Made by a program: the position numbers and the translations under genes. From an uncultured Pseudomonadota bacterium (GTDB lineage: Bacteria > Pseudomonadota > Gammaproteobacteria > Burkholderiales > Thiobacillaceae), in NCBI GenBank assembly GCA_903835655.1, contig CAILNT010000008.1:1-64000 (forward strand): a stretch of 64,000 bases of DNA, in the 5' to 3' direction. Below the pieces are notes generated by a model. It saw only the letters and a list, made by a program, of their open reading frames with translations, made no database searches and was not told the DNA's origin. Shown one piece after another: positions 25,164-47,098 of this stretch (position 1 is the stretch's first letter; the number at the start of each line of letters is the position of its first letter).

Positions 25164-28100
25164 ATGGCGCAGCCCCTGCCCGACTTGTTCCAGCCCTACA
25201 TGGACGTGGTGTTCCTGATCTATGGCGCCGCCTTTCTGGTCATGGGTATGGTCATCGTGGTCCAGCGCCAGCACGGCAGCCGGCTGGAGCTCGCCAATAT
25301 GCTCTGGCTGCTGGCCGGCTTCGGTTTCATCCATGGGCTGCTGGAGTGGACCGACCTTTGGCGCGTGGTGCGCGGTGACCCGCCCTGGCTGGCCGCCGGC
25401 CGGCCCTGGCTGCTGCTGCTGTCCCTGTTGTTGCTATTCGAGTTTGGCCGCCGCCTGGTGGTGGCATCCCTGCGGCAGACCCGGCAAGGCGGCCTGGTGC
25501 GGATCCTGCTGATGCCATGGATACACGCGCCGCTATTGCTGGCCATCCTGGCTGGCATGCTGGTCGCGGACAGGCCACTCCTGGCGCTCAATGTCGGTTC
25601 ACGCTACCTGCTGGGCTTCACAGGCTCCACCCTGGCCGGCATCGGTTTCTTCCTGTACTACCGGGAACATCTGGTGAAGAACGTGCCTTCCACGGGAAGC
25701 GCACGGGTGCGGGTGGCCATCTGGGTGATCGCCGTCACCCTGGTCGCCTATGGCGTGTTCGGTGGCCTGGTGGTGCCGAGGATGGACTACTTCCCCGCGT
25801 CCGTGCTCAATCAGGAAGGTTTCGTCGCTGCCCTGGGCGTGCCGGTGCAATTGCTTCGGGCACTTTGCGCGGTCCTGATCGCCGCTAGCGTCGCCACCCT
25901 GCTGGAAGTCTTCCACCTGGAACAACTCCGACAGTTGTGCGCGGCCATGGAGGATGCACAGAAGGCCTATGTGGAACTACGCAATCTGGGCAACCGGAAC
26001 CAGTTGATCCTGGACTCCGCCGCGGAAGGTATCGTCGGCACCAAGCTGGACGGCAGCGTTGCTTTCGCCAACGGTGCCGCTCTGGCCATGCTGGGCTTCA
26101 CGCAGGAGGAATTGCTGGGCCATTCCTTCCATGAACTGACCCACCACACCCGGGCCGATGGCACTTCCTATCCCGTGACGGATTGTCCAATCCACCAGGC
26201 GATGCACAGCCAGGCGATGTGCCGGGTCAACGCCGACGTTTTCTGGCGCAAGAACGGCACATCCTTCCCGGTGAACTACGCGGCCGCCCCGCTGCTGTGC
26301 GCCGGCAAGGTGGAGGGGGTGGTGGTCACCTTCGATGACCGCAGCCGCGAGGAGGAAGCGCAATCCGCCCTGCGCGTGGCCAAGGCAGCGGCGGAACTGG
26401 AGTCGCTCCAGGCGCAATCCCTGGCGAAGCTGCTGCGCTTGTCCCTGGCGGACATTCCGATGCGGGAATACCTCCAGGTCTCCCTGCGCACCTTGCTCGA
26501 CAGCGTGCCCTGGCTGGCGCTGCTGCCCAAGGGCGGCATTTTCCTGGCGACACGTTCGGGGTCGGGCGCGCACCTGGACCTGGTTGCCCAGTACCAACTC
26601 TCGCCGGAATTGCTGACGCTTTGTGCCCAGGTTCCTTTCGGCCTTTGCCTGTGCGGTCGTGCCGCCCAGGAGAAAACCACCCAGTTCGCGCATTGTGTCG
26701 ACCCCCGTCACGACATCCGATTCGCCGGCATCGCCCCCCACGGCCACTACAACGTGCCGATCATGAAGCGCGACGAGGTGCTGGGCGTCATCGTTTTCTA
26801 TCTGCCCCACGATTACCGGGAAAACGGCGGCGAGCGTCCATTCCTGGAGAAGGTGGCGGACGTGCTGAGCATGGGCATTTCCAGCCGGCGCGACCGCGAG
26901 GCCCTGAAGGACGCCAAGGAAGGGGCGGAATCGGCGGCGCGCACCAAGAGCGAATTTCTGGCCACCATGAGCCACGAGATTCGCACTCCCATGAACGGGG
27001 TCCTGGGCATGGCTCAGCTGCTGGCGGAAACCGACCTGGACGCGGAACAGCAGGATTACATCGAAACCATCACCCAGTCCGGCAACGGCCTGCTGACGGT
27101 GATCAACGACATCCTCGACTATTCCAAGATCGAGGCCGGGCGCATGACTCTGGACCCCATCGCCTTCGATCTGGAGCGCTCCATCCATGACGTGGCGCGG
27201 CTGTTGCTGCCGCGTGCCCAGGAAAAACACCTGGAACTGGTGGTGCATTACGAGCAGACCTGCCCCGCCCAGGTGGTGGGTGACGCTGGGCGCATCCGCC
27301 AGATCCTGCTCAACCTGGCCGGAAATGCCATCAAGTTCACCCATGAGGGCTATGTCCTGCTGGAAGTCCTGTGCGAGGAGATCAGCCCCGAAGGCCAGGT
27401 CAGCCTACGCCTGGCGGTGAAGGACACCGGCATCGGCCTGTCCGACGACGCCCGCAAACGCCTGTTCCAGTCCTTCAGCCAGGCGGATTCCAGCACCACC
27501 CGCAAGTACGGCGGCACCGGTCTGGGGCTCGCCATCAGCAAGCGCCTGGTCGACCTGATGGGGGGAGAGATTGGCGTCGACAGCGCCGAAGGCCAGGGCT
27601 CCGCCTTCTGGTTGAGGATCACCCTGCCGGAGGCGGAATCGGTGCGCGAACTGCCCCAGGCGAGCCTGACGGGCAGGCGGGTACTGTTGGTGGATGATCT
27701 GGAGGTGAACCTGCGCATTCTGCAGGGGCTGCTACGCCATGACGGCATGGAGGTAGCCGCCGCGGCCAGCGGCGACGAGGCCCTTGCCATGCTGCGCGCC
27801 GCAGCGGAGGCCGGCCTGCCCTACGAACTGGCCATCCTGGACTTCATGATGCCGAACATGGATGGAGAGGCCTTGATCCGGGTCATCCGCGCGGAAACAG
27901 ACCCGATGCTGGCCCAGATCCCCGCCGTCCTGTTGTCCTCTTCCGGGCAACGGGGTGACGCCAGGAGCTATTCCGAGATGGGCTTCTCCGGTTACTTGTC
28001 CAAACCGGTGCAATCCCAGGATCTGCGGCGGGTGCTGTCTTCCGTGCTGGGCATGCATGGAGGCATCGTCCGCGCCGAGGAACTGGTGACCCGGCACATG

Positions 28101-44517: not shown

Positions 44518-45207
44518 TTGAAACTCCTCGCCTTCGATACCGCCAGCGAATGGTGCTCTGCCGCGCTCTGGATCGACGGCGCGGTGAGTTTTCGCGCCGT
44601 GCACGCGGGACAAAAGCATTCCGAGCTGTTGGCCCCGATGCTGGGCGAGCTGCTGGCCGAGGCGGGCCTCAGTTATCGCCGTCTCGATGGCCTGGCCTTC
44701 GGTAGTGGGCCGGGCTCCTTCACGGGTTTGCGCATCGCCTGCGGCGTGGCCCAGGGCCTGGCCCTGGGCGCGGATCTGCCGGTGCTGGGGGTGTCCACCC
44801 TGGAAGCCCTGGCCGAGGAAGGCTGGGCGGCGAGCTCTGCGAGCGCCCCTTTGGCGGAGGCGGGCGAAGTCCTGGCCTGCCTGGATGCGCGCATGCACGA
44901 GGTCTATGTCGCGCTATACCGGCGCGAGGGGTCGGGCTGGCACCTCCTGTTCGGGCCGGTCGTGTGCGCGCCGCAAGCCGCGCCGCGACCGCAAAGCGTG
45001 AACTGTATCGGCGCCGGCCCGGGGTTTTCCGCCTATCCGCTGCTGGGCGAGGGGGTGGCGCGCATCGCCGCCGACGCCATCCCCCATGCCCGCGCCATCG
45101 TCAGGCTGGCCGCCCCGCGCTTCTCCGCCGGCATGTTCGGCCCGCCGGAAACGGCCGAGCCGCTCTATGTGCGCGACAAGGTCGCTTTGAAAGTCTGCGA
45201 GCGATGA
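44518..45207 (+). CDS. tsaB: tRNA threonylcarbamoyladenosine biosynthesis protein TsaB
   Basis: A 229-residue ASKHA-fold protein that partners TsaD in making the t6A37 modification of ANN-decoding tRNAs. It begins LKLLAFDTASEWCSAALW and has HSELLAPMLGELL and the GSGPGSFTGLRIACGVAQGL motif. It starts at TTG 44518, since no ATG or GTG fits the family start; GCGGA sits just ahead. It overlaps rimI in an ATGA. The tsaB-rimI pairing is common in Proteobacteria. Confidence 0.92.
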   Translation: MKLLAFDTASEWCSAALWIDGAVSFRAVHAGQKHSELLAPMLGELLAEAGLSYRRLDGLAFGSGPGSFTGLRIACGVAQGLALGADLPVLGVSTLEALAEEGWAASSASAPLAEAGEVLACLDARMHEVYVALYRREGSGWHLLFGPVVCAPQAAPRPQSVNCIGAGPGFSAYPLLGEGVARIAADAIPHARAIVRLAAPRFSAGMFGPPETAEPLYVRDKVALKVCER

Positions 45208-45668
45208 GTGCCCTCCTGAAACCGCAGGCCATGGCTTTCCGGCCGATGCGATCGGAGGATCTGGATGCCTTGATCCGGATCGAGCGCGCTTCCTATCCTT
45301 ATCCCTGGACCCTGGGCAATTTCCGCGACTGTCTGGATTCGGGCTATTCCACCTGGGTGGGGGAGGTCGAAGGTGAGTTGGCCGGCTACTGGGTGATGAT
45401 GCAGGCCGTGGACGAAGGCCACATCCTCAACTGTTGCATCGCCCCTGCCTGGCAGGGACGGGGGTTTGGCTACAGCCTGATGCGGCACCTCATCGCCACC
45501 GCTCGCGGCAACGCCACGGTAACGCTCTACCTGGAAGTGCGGCCATCCAATACTCGCGCGGTGAATCTCTATCAGCGCCTCGACTTCGACAGCATCGCCT
45601 TGCGTCGCAATTACTATCCCGCCGATCAGGGGCGCGAAGACGCCTTGGTCATGAGGTTGATCCTATGA
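45204..45668 (+). CDS. rimI: Ribosomal protein bS18 N-acetyltransferase RimI
   Basis: A 154-residue GNAT acetyltransferase that modifies the N-terminus of ribosomal protein S18. It has MRSEDLDALIRIERASYPYPW, the acetyl-CoA loop APAWQGRGFGYSLMRHLI, and LEVRPSNTRAVNLYQRLDF. RRNYYPADQGREDALVMRL closes the domain. It overlaps both tsaB and the next gene by four bases, so all three are translationally coupled. Confidence 0.93.
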   Translation: MSALLKPQAMAFRPMRSEDLDALIRIERASYPYPWTLGNFRDCLDSGYSTWVGEVEGELAGYWVMMQAVDEGHILNCCIAPAWQGRGFGYSLMRHLIATARGNATVTLYLEVRPSNTRAVNLYQRLDFDSIALRRNYYPADQGREDALVMRLIL

Positions 45669-47098
45669 GCCTCGCGCGCGCGGAGATTTTCAGGGAACTG
45701 GGCCTGCTGCCGGTCTGGCGGCTGCAAGGTTCCGCACAGGCAGGCGCAGCCGAAGCTGTAGCGCAGGCATCCCTGCCTGCGTCTGCTCGTCCATACCTGA
45801 CACAAGGCATCCATACCCGCGGCTACCTGCCCCATGTCAAGGCCGAGGGTGCGAGCTACTTCGTCACCTTTCGCCTGGCCGACAGCCTGCCCCAGGAAGT
45901 CCAGGAGCGTTGGCGCGAACTGCCGGAAATCGAAAGAGCCCGGGAAGTGGAACGCCATCTCGATACGGGCGCCGGCGAATGCCTGCTGGCCCGGCCGGAG
46001 TTGGCGGATTTGGTGGTCCAGGCCCTGCGCCACCACGAAGACCGCTATGTCTTGCACGACTTCGTGGTCATGCCCAATCACGTACATTTGCTGTTGACCC
46101 CGGGGCCGGGCCAGACCTTGAGCGATATCCTGCATGGCATCAAGTCATGGACTGCGCAAGAGTTCAACGTTCTACTGGGGCGCTCCGGAGTGCTCTGGCA
46201 GCGCGAGAGCTTCGACCGTGTGGCGCGGGACGACGACGAGATGCAGCGTCTCGCCGCCTACATCCGGCACAATCCGGTCAAGGCAGGGTTGTGCGCGGAG
46301 GAAGCCGGTTTCCGCTGGAGCAGCGCGTGGCAAGACGCAGGCAGGGATGCCTGCGCTACACGGGGCAGCCCAGCCGTCGTGCCGGATGCACGCGTCGCCG
46401 TAGCGCAGACATCCCTGCCTGCGTCTTCTTCGAAAGAGGTGGCCTCCCCTGTAGCGCAGACATCCCCGCCTGCGTCCTCCTCGAAAGCGGCGGCTCCTGA
46501 TGTAGCGCAGGCATCCCTGCCTGCGTCTTTTGACCCCAGCAGCCTCGACTGGCCCGCCCTTACCGCCGCCATCAGGGGGTGCAGCCTCTGCGGTCTGCAC
46601 AAGAGCCGCACCCAGTCCGTCCCTGGCGTCGGCGACCTCCGGGCCGAATGGCTGTTCATCGGCGAGGCGCCGGGAGCGGACGAGGATCGTCAGGGCGAGC
46701 CTTTCGTCGGCCAGGCCGGCAAGCTGCTGGACGCCATGCTGGGGGCGCTGCGCCTGAAGCGCGGCGAGAACGTCTACATCGCCAACATCCTGAAATCACG
46801 CCCGCCGGGCAACCGCGATCCGCTCCCGGAAGAGGTGGCCGCCTGCCTGCCCTATCTACAGCGGCAGATCGACCTGATTCAACCCAAGCTCATCGTCGCC
46901 GTCGGCCGCATCGCTGCGCAAAACCTGCTGGTGACCGACACCCCCATAGGCAAGCTGCGCGGGCACGTTCACGAATATCGCGGCATCCCCCTGGTGGTCA
47001 CCTATCACCCGGCCTACCTGTTGCGCAGCCCCGCGGACAAGGTGCGCGCTTGGGAAGATCTGGTGCTGGCCGCGAACACGATGCAGCGTCTGCGCTGA
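45665..47098 (+). CDS. Family 4 uracil-DNA glycosylase with an in-frame REP-associated transposase insertion
   Basis: A 477-residue open frame holds two proteins in one. Residues 1-21 (MSLARAEIFRELGLLPVWRL) are the start of a family 4 uracil-DNA glycosylase, and residues about 297-477 are its core, with GEAPGADEDRQGEPFVGQAG, KSRPPGNRDP and YHPAYLLRSP. Between them sits a RAYT/Y1 transposase (about 48-222) with the HUH motif H139-VH and HNPVKAGL, plus REP-encoded linkers read as VAQASLPAS and DAGRDACAT. Of the four iron-sulfur Cys expected in the glycosylase, C306, C309 and C394 are present, but position 378 is Ser. The expected transposase Tyr appears to be Phe183. ATG 45665 overlaps the rimI stop. 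Confidence 0.88.
   Translation: MSLARAEIFRELGLLPVWRLQGSAQAGAAEAVAQASLPASARPYLTQGIHTRGYLPHVKAEGASYFVTFRLADSLPQEVQERWRELPEIERAREVERHLDTGAGECLLARPELADLVVQALRHHEDRYVLHDFVVMPNHVHLLLTPGPGQTLSDILHGIKSWTAQEFNVLLGRSGVLWQRESFDRVARDDDEMQRLAAYIRHNPVKAGLCAEEAGFRWSSAWQDAGRDACATRGSPAVVPDARVAVAQTSLPASSSKEVASPVAQTSPPASSSKAAAPDVAQASLPASFDPSSLDWPALTAAIRGCSLCGLHKSRTQSVPGVGDLRAEWLFIGEAPGADEDRQGEPFVGQAGKLLDAMLGALRLKRGENVYIANILKSRPPGNRDPLPEEVAACLPYLQRQIDLIQPKLIVAVGRIAAQNLLVTDTPIGKLRGHVHEYRGIPLVVTYHPAYLLRSPADKVRAWEDLVLAANTMQRLR
45758..45784 (+). repeat. REP hairpin 1
   Basis: The tetranucleotide GTAG is followed by stem arms CGCAGGC and GCCTGCG around the loop ATCCCT, then TCT. A GTAG foot next to the hairpin is the form recognised by RAYT proteins. 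It is translated as VAQASLPAS. Confidence 0.8.
46333..46359 (-). repeat. REP hairpin 2, inverted
   Basis: The same 27-base unit as REP 1 on the opposite strand, ending in CTAC. Read on the plus strand it encodes DAGRDACAT directly after the RAYT domain. With REP 1 it forms inverted flanks around the transposase. Confidence 0.8.
46400..46426 (+). repeat. REP hairpin 3
   Basis: Direct copy with one change in the left arm (CGCAGAC instead of CGCAGGC). It is translated as VAQTSLPAS. Confidence 0.78.
46451..46477 (+). repeat. REP hairpin 4
   Basis: Direct copy with CGCAGAC in the left arm and ATCCCC in the loop. It is translated as VAQTSPPAS. Confidence 0.78.
46502..46528 (+). repeat. REP hairpin 5
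   Basis: Direct copy identical to REP 1 over the stem and loop. The glycosylase reading frame resumes directly after it, at FDPSSLDWPALTAAIRGC. Confidence 0.78.

Follow-up and report, generated by a model that had tools for sequence, protein, structure and literature searches.

Analysis of a 64,000-nt stretch of DNA from an uncultured Thiobacillaceae bacterium (contig CAILNT010000008.1, positions 1 to 64,000; hereafter the window) uncovered a gene at 45665-47098 in which a REP-associated tyrosine transposase (RAYT, also TnpA_REP) is encoded in frame within a family 4 uracil-DNA glycosylase (UDG). We consider it likely that a RAYT flanked by inverted repetitive extragenic palindromes (REPs), that is a REPtron, once inserted in the linker of the UDG and is now translated as an internal domain of that enzyme. 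Related RAYTs were found in frame within diverse other proteins, and these results are best read as a lineage of RAYTs whose members reside in the linkers of proteins as translated domains, resembling inteins but without splicing.

The gene is a single open frame on the forward strand, free of stops until the TGA at 47096-47098, and its ATG at 45665 overlaps the stop codon of the upstream rimI. Its parts are ordered as a 21-residue N-terminal motif, a REP, the RAYT, an inverted REP, three direct REPs, and the family 4 UDG core (Table 1). Domain models and translation here agree with the original prediction, made from the sequence alone, which had described one frame without a stop over 477 codons in which a UDG motif of 21 residues is followed by a RAYT and then by the UDG core. 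The NCBIfam model REP_Tyr_transpos (NF047646) matches residues 107-219 of the fusion with 81.0 bits, barely above its cut-off of 80, and UDG_fam4 (TIGR00758) matches residues 306-467 with 208.3 bits (cut-off 125.3), while Pfam recovers both Y1_Tnp (30.7 bits, cut-off 23) and UDG (123.8 bits, cut-off 24.3). The H-V-H residues and the tyrosine of Y..NP, which we take to be the HUH motif and the catalytic tyrosine, are invariant in all ten fused RAYTs of the genus. Family 4 UDGs are presumed to carry four iron-sulphur cysteines, and the fusion has C306, C309, and C394 of these; residue 378 is a serine (KSRPP). In the comparison (G and L labels denote its genomes and loci, G000 being the genome of the window), serine is also found at this position in plain UDGs of the same genus (KSRPP), while G001 has KCRPA and members of a second family, f50, have KCRPP, or KCRPA in G266.

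Table 1 Parts of the fused gene and its upstream neighbour, in positions of the window.
Feature	Position	Strand	Remarks
rimI, upstream gene	45204..45668	+	neighbour; serves as a flank when testing exchange
Fused gene (N-terminal motif, RAYT, UDG core), 477 codons	45665..47098	+	
UDG N-terminal motif, roughly MSLxRExxLKELGLxPxWRLR	45665..45727	+	common to plain UDGs of genus and family
REP 1 (GTAG and 8-bp hairpin), translated VAQASLPAS	45757..45784	+	
RAYT (TnpA_REP) domain	45797..46330	+	curated model, relatives, 4er8 match
MPNHVH, HUH motif	46070..46087	+	invariant in 10/10 fused RAYTs of genus
Tyr199 of Y-x-x-x-NP motif, presumed catalytic tyrosine	46259..46261	+	invariant
REP 2, inverted	46333..46360	-	100% complementary to REP 1
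REP 3	46399..46426	+	
REP 4	46450..46477	+	starts 51 nt (17 codons) after REP 3
REP 5	46501..46528	+	starts 51 nt after REP 4
Family 4 UDG core	46544..47095	+	

Structure prediction with AlphaFold was poor when only the eight fused rows were supplied (predicted local distance difference test, pLDDT, 47.9), and an alignment of 70 rows was used instead, giving a mean pLDDT of 80.1 and a predicted template-modelling score (pTM) of 0.50. Block-mean pLDDT was 89-98 over RAYT residues 61-220 and 70-97 over UDG residues 291-477, and fell below 50 at residues 22-40 and 228-282, which are the REP-encoded linkers. The model suggests two independent domains on loose tethers. A Foldseek search with it placed family 4 UDGs on top (1ui1, 42% identity, TMt 0.86) and recovered the TnpA_REP structure 4er8 at rank 38 (E 2.9e-8, TMt 0.64, root-mean-square deviation 7.5); 4er8 was also matched by sequence (E 3.2e-8).

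The same arrangement recurs among relatives. A search of 61 genomes, 23 of them from the genus of the window, placed a RAYT in the UDG linker of 10 of the 23 (G000, G005, G006, G008, G010, G011, G016, G017, G019, and G022), with 48-96% identity to the RAYT of the window; 12 others encode a plain UDG with a short, often Ala/Pro-rich linker, and no UDG was seen in G012, a genome 58% complete. Of 399 genomes of the order, 11 contain a RAYT match at E <= 1e-25, comprising four of the same genus, six of one genus in another family (g95 of f50), and one in which the match lies inside a type I restriction R subunit. The UDG core is visible in five of the six fused genes of f50, and over all 16 fused genes the RAYT and the core share a contig in 13, in 12 of which they are in frame. 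At the place of insertion, the linkers of 20 plain relatives measure 14-70 residues, and none of the 20 contains a hairpin of at least 7 bp, whereas the linker that precedes the RAYT does so in nine of ten fused genes. These comparisons bear out the proposal that a REPtron was inserted in a UDG gene with the frame kept. That it might be a very recent event is contradicted by the spread of the arrangement through the genus and into a second family; occurrence in diverged relatives had been set beforehand as a test, and finding it overturns recency while leaving insertion in place. Separately, the idea that a REP already present in the linker had served as a landing pad is unsupported by the plain linkers, all 20 of which lack such a hairpin.

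Chance does not account for this layout, as relatives repeat the parts in the same order and the model shows two folded domains. An assembly or sequencing artefact that joined two genes is hardly credible. Most of the records are metagenome-assembled, REPs are repetitive, and G006 and G008 break in or near REPs, all of which would favour such an error, but the same joint is found in separate assemblies with different REP types, and RAYT nesting extends to records whose titles do not mark them as metagenome-assembled genomes, namely Pontiella sulfatireligans F21(T), Dolichospermum sp. LEGE 00240, and Chloroflexales bacterium ZM16-3.

The five REPs of the gene span 28 nt each, four on the forward strand and one inverted, and all of them are read in frame as linkers, as had been described from the sequence. 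The REP core belongs to a dispersed family, with 25 sites in the whole 3.67-Mb genome (<=3 mismatches) versus none for a reversed control pattern, and five of the 25 sites lie in the fused gene. The GTAG foot is present, and REP 1 and REP 2 form an inverted pair around the RAYT. Foot to foot, REP 1 and REP 2 enclose 602 nt, which is not a multiple of three, so that the edges of the first insertion and any target duplication are not definable. The REP peptides next to the RAYT vary among relatives (for example VAQASSPAS versus VAPAPSPAN). Elsewhere in G000, three tandem REPs with a 72-nt unit (24 codons) lie in frame within an apparent cobyrinate diamide synthase, judged by eye (contig C48, ~27748-27915; L135), apparently another translated REP insert of the same genome. 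A second, ordinary RAYT is encoded in a 179-aa frame on contig C117 (2758-3192; 195 bits).

Between residue 1 and the RAYT core there is no in-frame ATG, GTG, or TTG in G000 and G019, and the whole RAYT can therefore be made there only as part of the fusion. Other fused members have a few in-frame starts before the RAYT core, mostly within the N-terminal motif, and in some of them a TTG, GTG, or ATG lies in the first linker. Judged as a separate gene with its own start, the RAYT of G000 falls short, having no in-frame start ahead of its core; this missing start is the new part, and it is not a defining RAYT chemistry.

In order to gauge constraint on the two domains, omega, the ratio of nonsynonymous to synonymous change, was estimated by the Nei-Gojobori method with our own script. 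Values were 0.06-0.31 for the RAYT domain (45 pairs among the ten fused RAYTs of the genus) and 0.08-0.20 for the UDG core (36 pairs). Both domains are under purifying selection, in line with selection for a working glycosylase, which was one of the options named originally.

Inheritance of the locus as a block predicts that synonymous divergence (pS) is alike across rimI, RAYT, and UDG. This is the case for G010/G019 (0.25/0.25/0.22, in that order) and for G017/G019 (0.36/0.36/0.34). Values are uneven for G006/G010 (0.21/0.61/0.29), G006/G019 (0.25/0.66/0.21), G006/G016 (0.17/0.63/0.37), and G010/G016 (0.19/0.58/0.39), while in G010/G017 the RAYT is the closer part (0.31/0.20/0.32). The tree of UDG cores contains a G019+G006 sister grouping (support 94/91) and a five-genome grouping (84/88), both of which the RAYT data reject in approximately unbiased tests (p-AU 1.2e-5 and 9e-4, respectively). 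The uneven pS and the rejected groupings together indicate that the RAYT cassette was replaced while both flanks stayed, with the frame kept. When 93 RAYT domains are placed in a tree, all 16 that are nested in UDG fall into a single clade (support 99/92), with one change in 99% of the 200 bootstrap replicates; the RAYT trees omit L039 and L042, which are the same genes as L123 and L127, and the broken L085. Fused cores are not one clade in the tree of 34 UDG cores, where the eight fused cores of the genus group together (99/96), five f50 cores pair with the plain G050 (99/95), and G011 pairs with the plain G001 (90/82). Since the RAYTs form one clade and the cores do not, it seems that a single RAYT lineage invaded the linker of UDG on more than one branch.

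These data also bear on the alternative of an ancient domain fusion that became fixed in a single ancestor, passed on by vertical descent, is now immobile, and was lost in most lineages, which we regard as unlikely. The single clade of UDG-nested RAYTs, the single clade of eight fused cores, and the equal pS of G010/G019 and G017/G019 are what such a fusion would leave. It is opposed by RAYT pS values of 0.49-0.66 where rimI pS is 0.17-0.25 (G006 or G016 compared with G010, G019, or each other), by the groupings of the core tree that the RAYT data reject, and by plain cores that separate the fused f50 cores from the fused f1 cores, which would require many losses.

Nesting is not confined to UDG. 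A scan of contigs confirmed at least 467 relatives, and among the best 80 of these, which come from named records and are biased towards the query, 31 carry the RAYT in frame within a host protein. The hosts are Eco57I/MmeI-type methylases (seven cases, one of them weak), DUF1156 methylases (four), CarB (four), UDG (three), and ValS (two), together with single cases of LeuS, AlaS, PriA, XseA, a CCA-adding enzyme (whose contig ends after the RAYT), a SNF2 helicase, an acetyl-CoA synthetase-like protein, an adenosine deaminase, an MqnA-like protein, a FabA-like protein, and a radical SAM protein. Weak rows among the 31 are L049 (DUF1156), assigned by eye, L113, with host sequence on one side only, and L116, with a match below the Pfam cut-off. 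Related in-frame RAYTs are present in DUF1156 methylases from records of four phyla (L043, L046, L048, and L049), by transfer of the host gene or by re-insertion. In CarB, ValS, LeuS, XseA, SNF2, and others the RAYT splits a single Pfam domain, for example the CarB oligomerisation domain (80 positions, split at 55-63) and the editing domain of LeuS (185 positions, split at 143).

To look further afield, 145 newly drawn genomes were searched from another phylum, the one to which G710 belongs (Verrucomicrobia bacterium AV101, source of L097). Matches at E <= 1e-12 were present in 56 genomes, and among the 139 matches listed 32 lie in frames longer than 400 aa, two of them being one frame (G809). 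Long frames were present at 13 of 30 loci, ten of which were scanned; L154, which is the CarB of L097, and L162 were left out. All ten scanned frames hold a host domain (radical SAM twice, HypF, Eco57I, NUDIX, creatininase, PriA twice, ValS, and CCA), which in the NUDIX case lies on one side only (L144 being the one-side row). The long frame of L158, from the same draw, showed no host after the RAYT by eye. The expectation that RAYT genes are normally separate agrees with the general RAYT model, where few of the matches listed are in long frames, and does not suit this subfamily.

In a quick tree, the RAYTs of radical SAM, CCA, CarB, DUF1156, and UDG hosts each require one change among grouped rows, those of ValS and PriA two, and those of methylases four, which indicates that some hosts were entered more than once. 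The MqnA RAYT falls inside the CarB clade of the 93-domain tree. Nested RAYTs retain the motifs of lone ones, with HUH in 44/45 and Y..NP in 43/45 (45/48 and 48/48 in lone RAYTs), and inverted repeats with a score of at least 14 lie on both sides of the RAYT in 30 of the 39 nested rows and in 38 of the 51 others, where the best of five shuffles scores ~10 at the median and the other rows include the nested L033, L039, L113, and L124, and L085 twice. Out-of-frame insertions were sought by searching the N and C parts of 20 host proteins apart, and none of 66 loci had two halves around a RAYT at a threshold for which the 25-residue N part of UDG is too short to be detected; the one match was to a distant gene.

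The split domains also help in weighing whether two separate proteins are made, the frame being open by chance in G+C-rich DNA and each part having its own start codon, which we judge improbable. The fused genes do have GTG or TTG codons, and three of them an ATG, between the RAYT and the UDG motif, and L158, a long frame without a host by eye, shows that chance long frames occur. However, G000 and G019 lack any start ahead of the RAYT core, separate products of a single Pfam domain split by a RAYT would not fold as known, and of the loci scored as carrying a lone RAYT, L041 is the only one in which a different frame extends across the RAYT and 120 residues beyond it in both directions.

For some hosts the interrupted gene appears to be the only copy. 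The sole AlaS hit in G705 is the interrupted one, and the interrupted gene holds every hit to the CarB oligomerisation domain in four of four genomes, these being metagenome assemblies of unstated completeness in which a second copy may have been missed. Such cases are relevant to the view that the RAYT is only a selfish passenger, tolerated with no cellular role and with the UDG part perhaps dispensable, a possibility that we place just short of an even chance. A parasite relying on borrowed expression would have its parts in this order, and the available text of PMC3733652 holds that intragenic REPs may be neutral in linkers and loops. A dispensable UDG is at odds with the omega of 0.08-0.20 in its core, and host function should survive in the one AlaS and the four CarB cases for which no copy other than the interrupted one was found; sole-copy hosts are nonetheless compatible with a RAYT that serves itself alone.

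Several observations weigh against an inserted REPtron translated as an internal domain. Some of the fused genes are incomplete, as G006 is split over two contig ends, the contig of G008 ends after the RAYT so that the core is not seen, G379 has the N-terminal motif followed by a contig end, and the start of G266 falls within the RAYT. For G323 (L124), the RAYT and UDG core are in different frames and the linker after the RAYT is gone, a break that could be decay or an assembly error. GTG codons are present in the second linker, in G000 at 239 and 259, and by sequence the UDG core may have a start of its own. A separate acquisition in G011 is unproven, since the plain G001 with which it pairs among the cores sits on a long branch, and the data do not reject (p-AU 0.24) a single clade that unites the RAYT of G011 with those of its congeners. 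Long frames are rare when the general RAYT model is applied to 299 genomes of the phylum of the window, at least five rows exceeding 400 aa by eye, that of G000 included. In-frame cases also over-represent survivors, and lethal insertions go unseen.

An inserted and translated REPtron remains the reading that we favour, and a route to it can be proposed. A REP-guided HUH transposase would enter single-stranded DNA, and most insertions would be lost while those in frame within linkers or loops would survive. REP ends open in the host frame would then be read as flexible linkers, giving RAYT and UDG on one predicted chain of ~51 kDa. The REPs are stop-free in the frame used, so the element would need no promoter, start, or stop; the RAYT may instead borrow the expression of the host gene and survive since its insertion spares the host fold. 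The replacement in place indicated by the pS values would most likely proceed either through single-strand transposition guided by REPs or through recombination, the partner being a fused copy that has come in from outside. With motifs kept and selection acting on both domains, both enzymes are probably active, and the tie to UDG may be functional, bringing uracil excision and REP single-strand processing onto one chain. Our broader proposal is tentative, its chances somewhat below even: that this RAYT subfamily is a class of mobile protein domain, translated, intein-like, and non-splicing, which enters linkers and loops of conserved proteins in frame, forms lineages by host site (UDG, CarB, DUF1156 methylase, CCA enzyme, and radical SAM), re-homes to the same linker in other lineages, and is kept for its single-strand endonuclease.

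The fusion bears on the cellular role of RAYTs and on the movement of REPtrons. A RAYT that can be expressed only within a conserved enzyme is a natural tagged and selected form, open to purification and assay, and the mobility of the RAYT is recorded in the exchanges of its cassette. RAYTs in frame in tRNA synthetases, CarB, PriA, and UDG would add a class of translated mobile element beside inteins, and offer natural examples of large domain insertions seemingly tolerated by essential enzymes.

The N-terminal motif itself is strongly conserved in the fused gene and in plain UDGs (L012-L032), though far from the catalytic core. It bears a likeness to the N-terminal peptide of E. coli HolD (psi), whose gene likewise adjoins rimI. 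Profile searches did not support a psi peptide, with no psi chain among three PDB hits up to E 10 and PF03603 (DNA_III_psi) above its cut-off in 0/41 relatives, eight of which gave sub-threshold matches.

REPs inside genes, often repair genes, were already known, as the available text of PMC3733652 describes, and cleavage of REPs by RAYTs is established according to that of PMC8266576. In the portion of PMC6006769 at hand, a few long RAYT proteins are set aside as fusions or annotation errors, which would make a nested class easy to miss. RAYT nesting is not described in the available sections of the Thiomargarita paper on miniature inverted-repeat transposable elements (PMC4853749) or of the first RAYT paper (PMC2817692). 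Among titles and abstract openings of the open-licence PubMed Central literature, which leaves subscription papers largely uncovered, we found no description of RAYTs inside host genes, and in the open-licence literature nothing pairing uracil-DNA glycosylase with a RAYT.

As far as the text of PMC3733652 available to us goes, intragenic REPs resemble the present case in lying in frame in genes, many for DNA synthesis or repair, with a linker or loop location proposed, and differ in that they encode 20-82 amino acids, whereas here the transposase itself is in frame. TnpA_Y1 subclass 2.4 (PMC6006769, same portion) has REPs in frame inside an unbroken RAYT; there the REP is in the RAYT, while here the RAYT and its REPs are in a host gene. 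Rickettsia palindromic elements are likewise palindromic repeats translated inside unrelated proteins, but have no transposase inside as far as PMC3733652 tells. With REPtrons and RAYTs in general the element shares the HUH and tyrosine motifs, inverted flanking REPs with GTAG feet, the RAYT fold (4er8), and dispersed REPs; unlike them, it has no gene of its own, no stop and no start before the core (G000 and G019), forms an internal domain of a host enzyme, and is exchanged within the host gene. Inteins are mobile in-frame elements of conserved, often nucleic-acid, proteins, whose sites are reoccupied in relatives. The nested RAYTs share with them both an in-frame position in conserved proteins and renewed occupation of the same site in relatives. 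No Pfam match to a splicing or homing-endonuclease domain was found in the fusion or the scanned hosts, and, in contrast to an intein, the UDG insert is presumed to stay in the protein.

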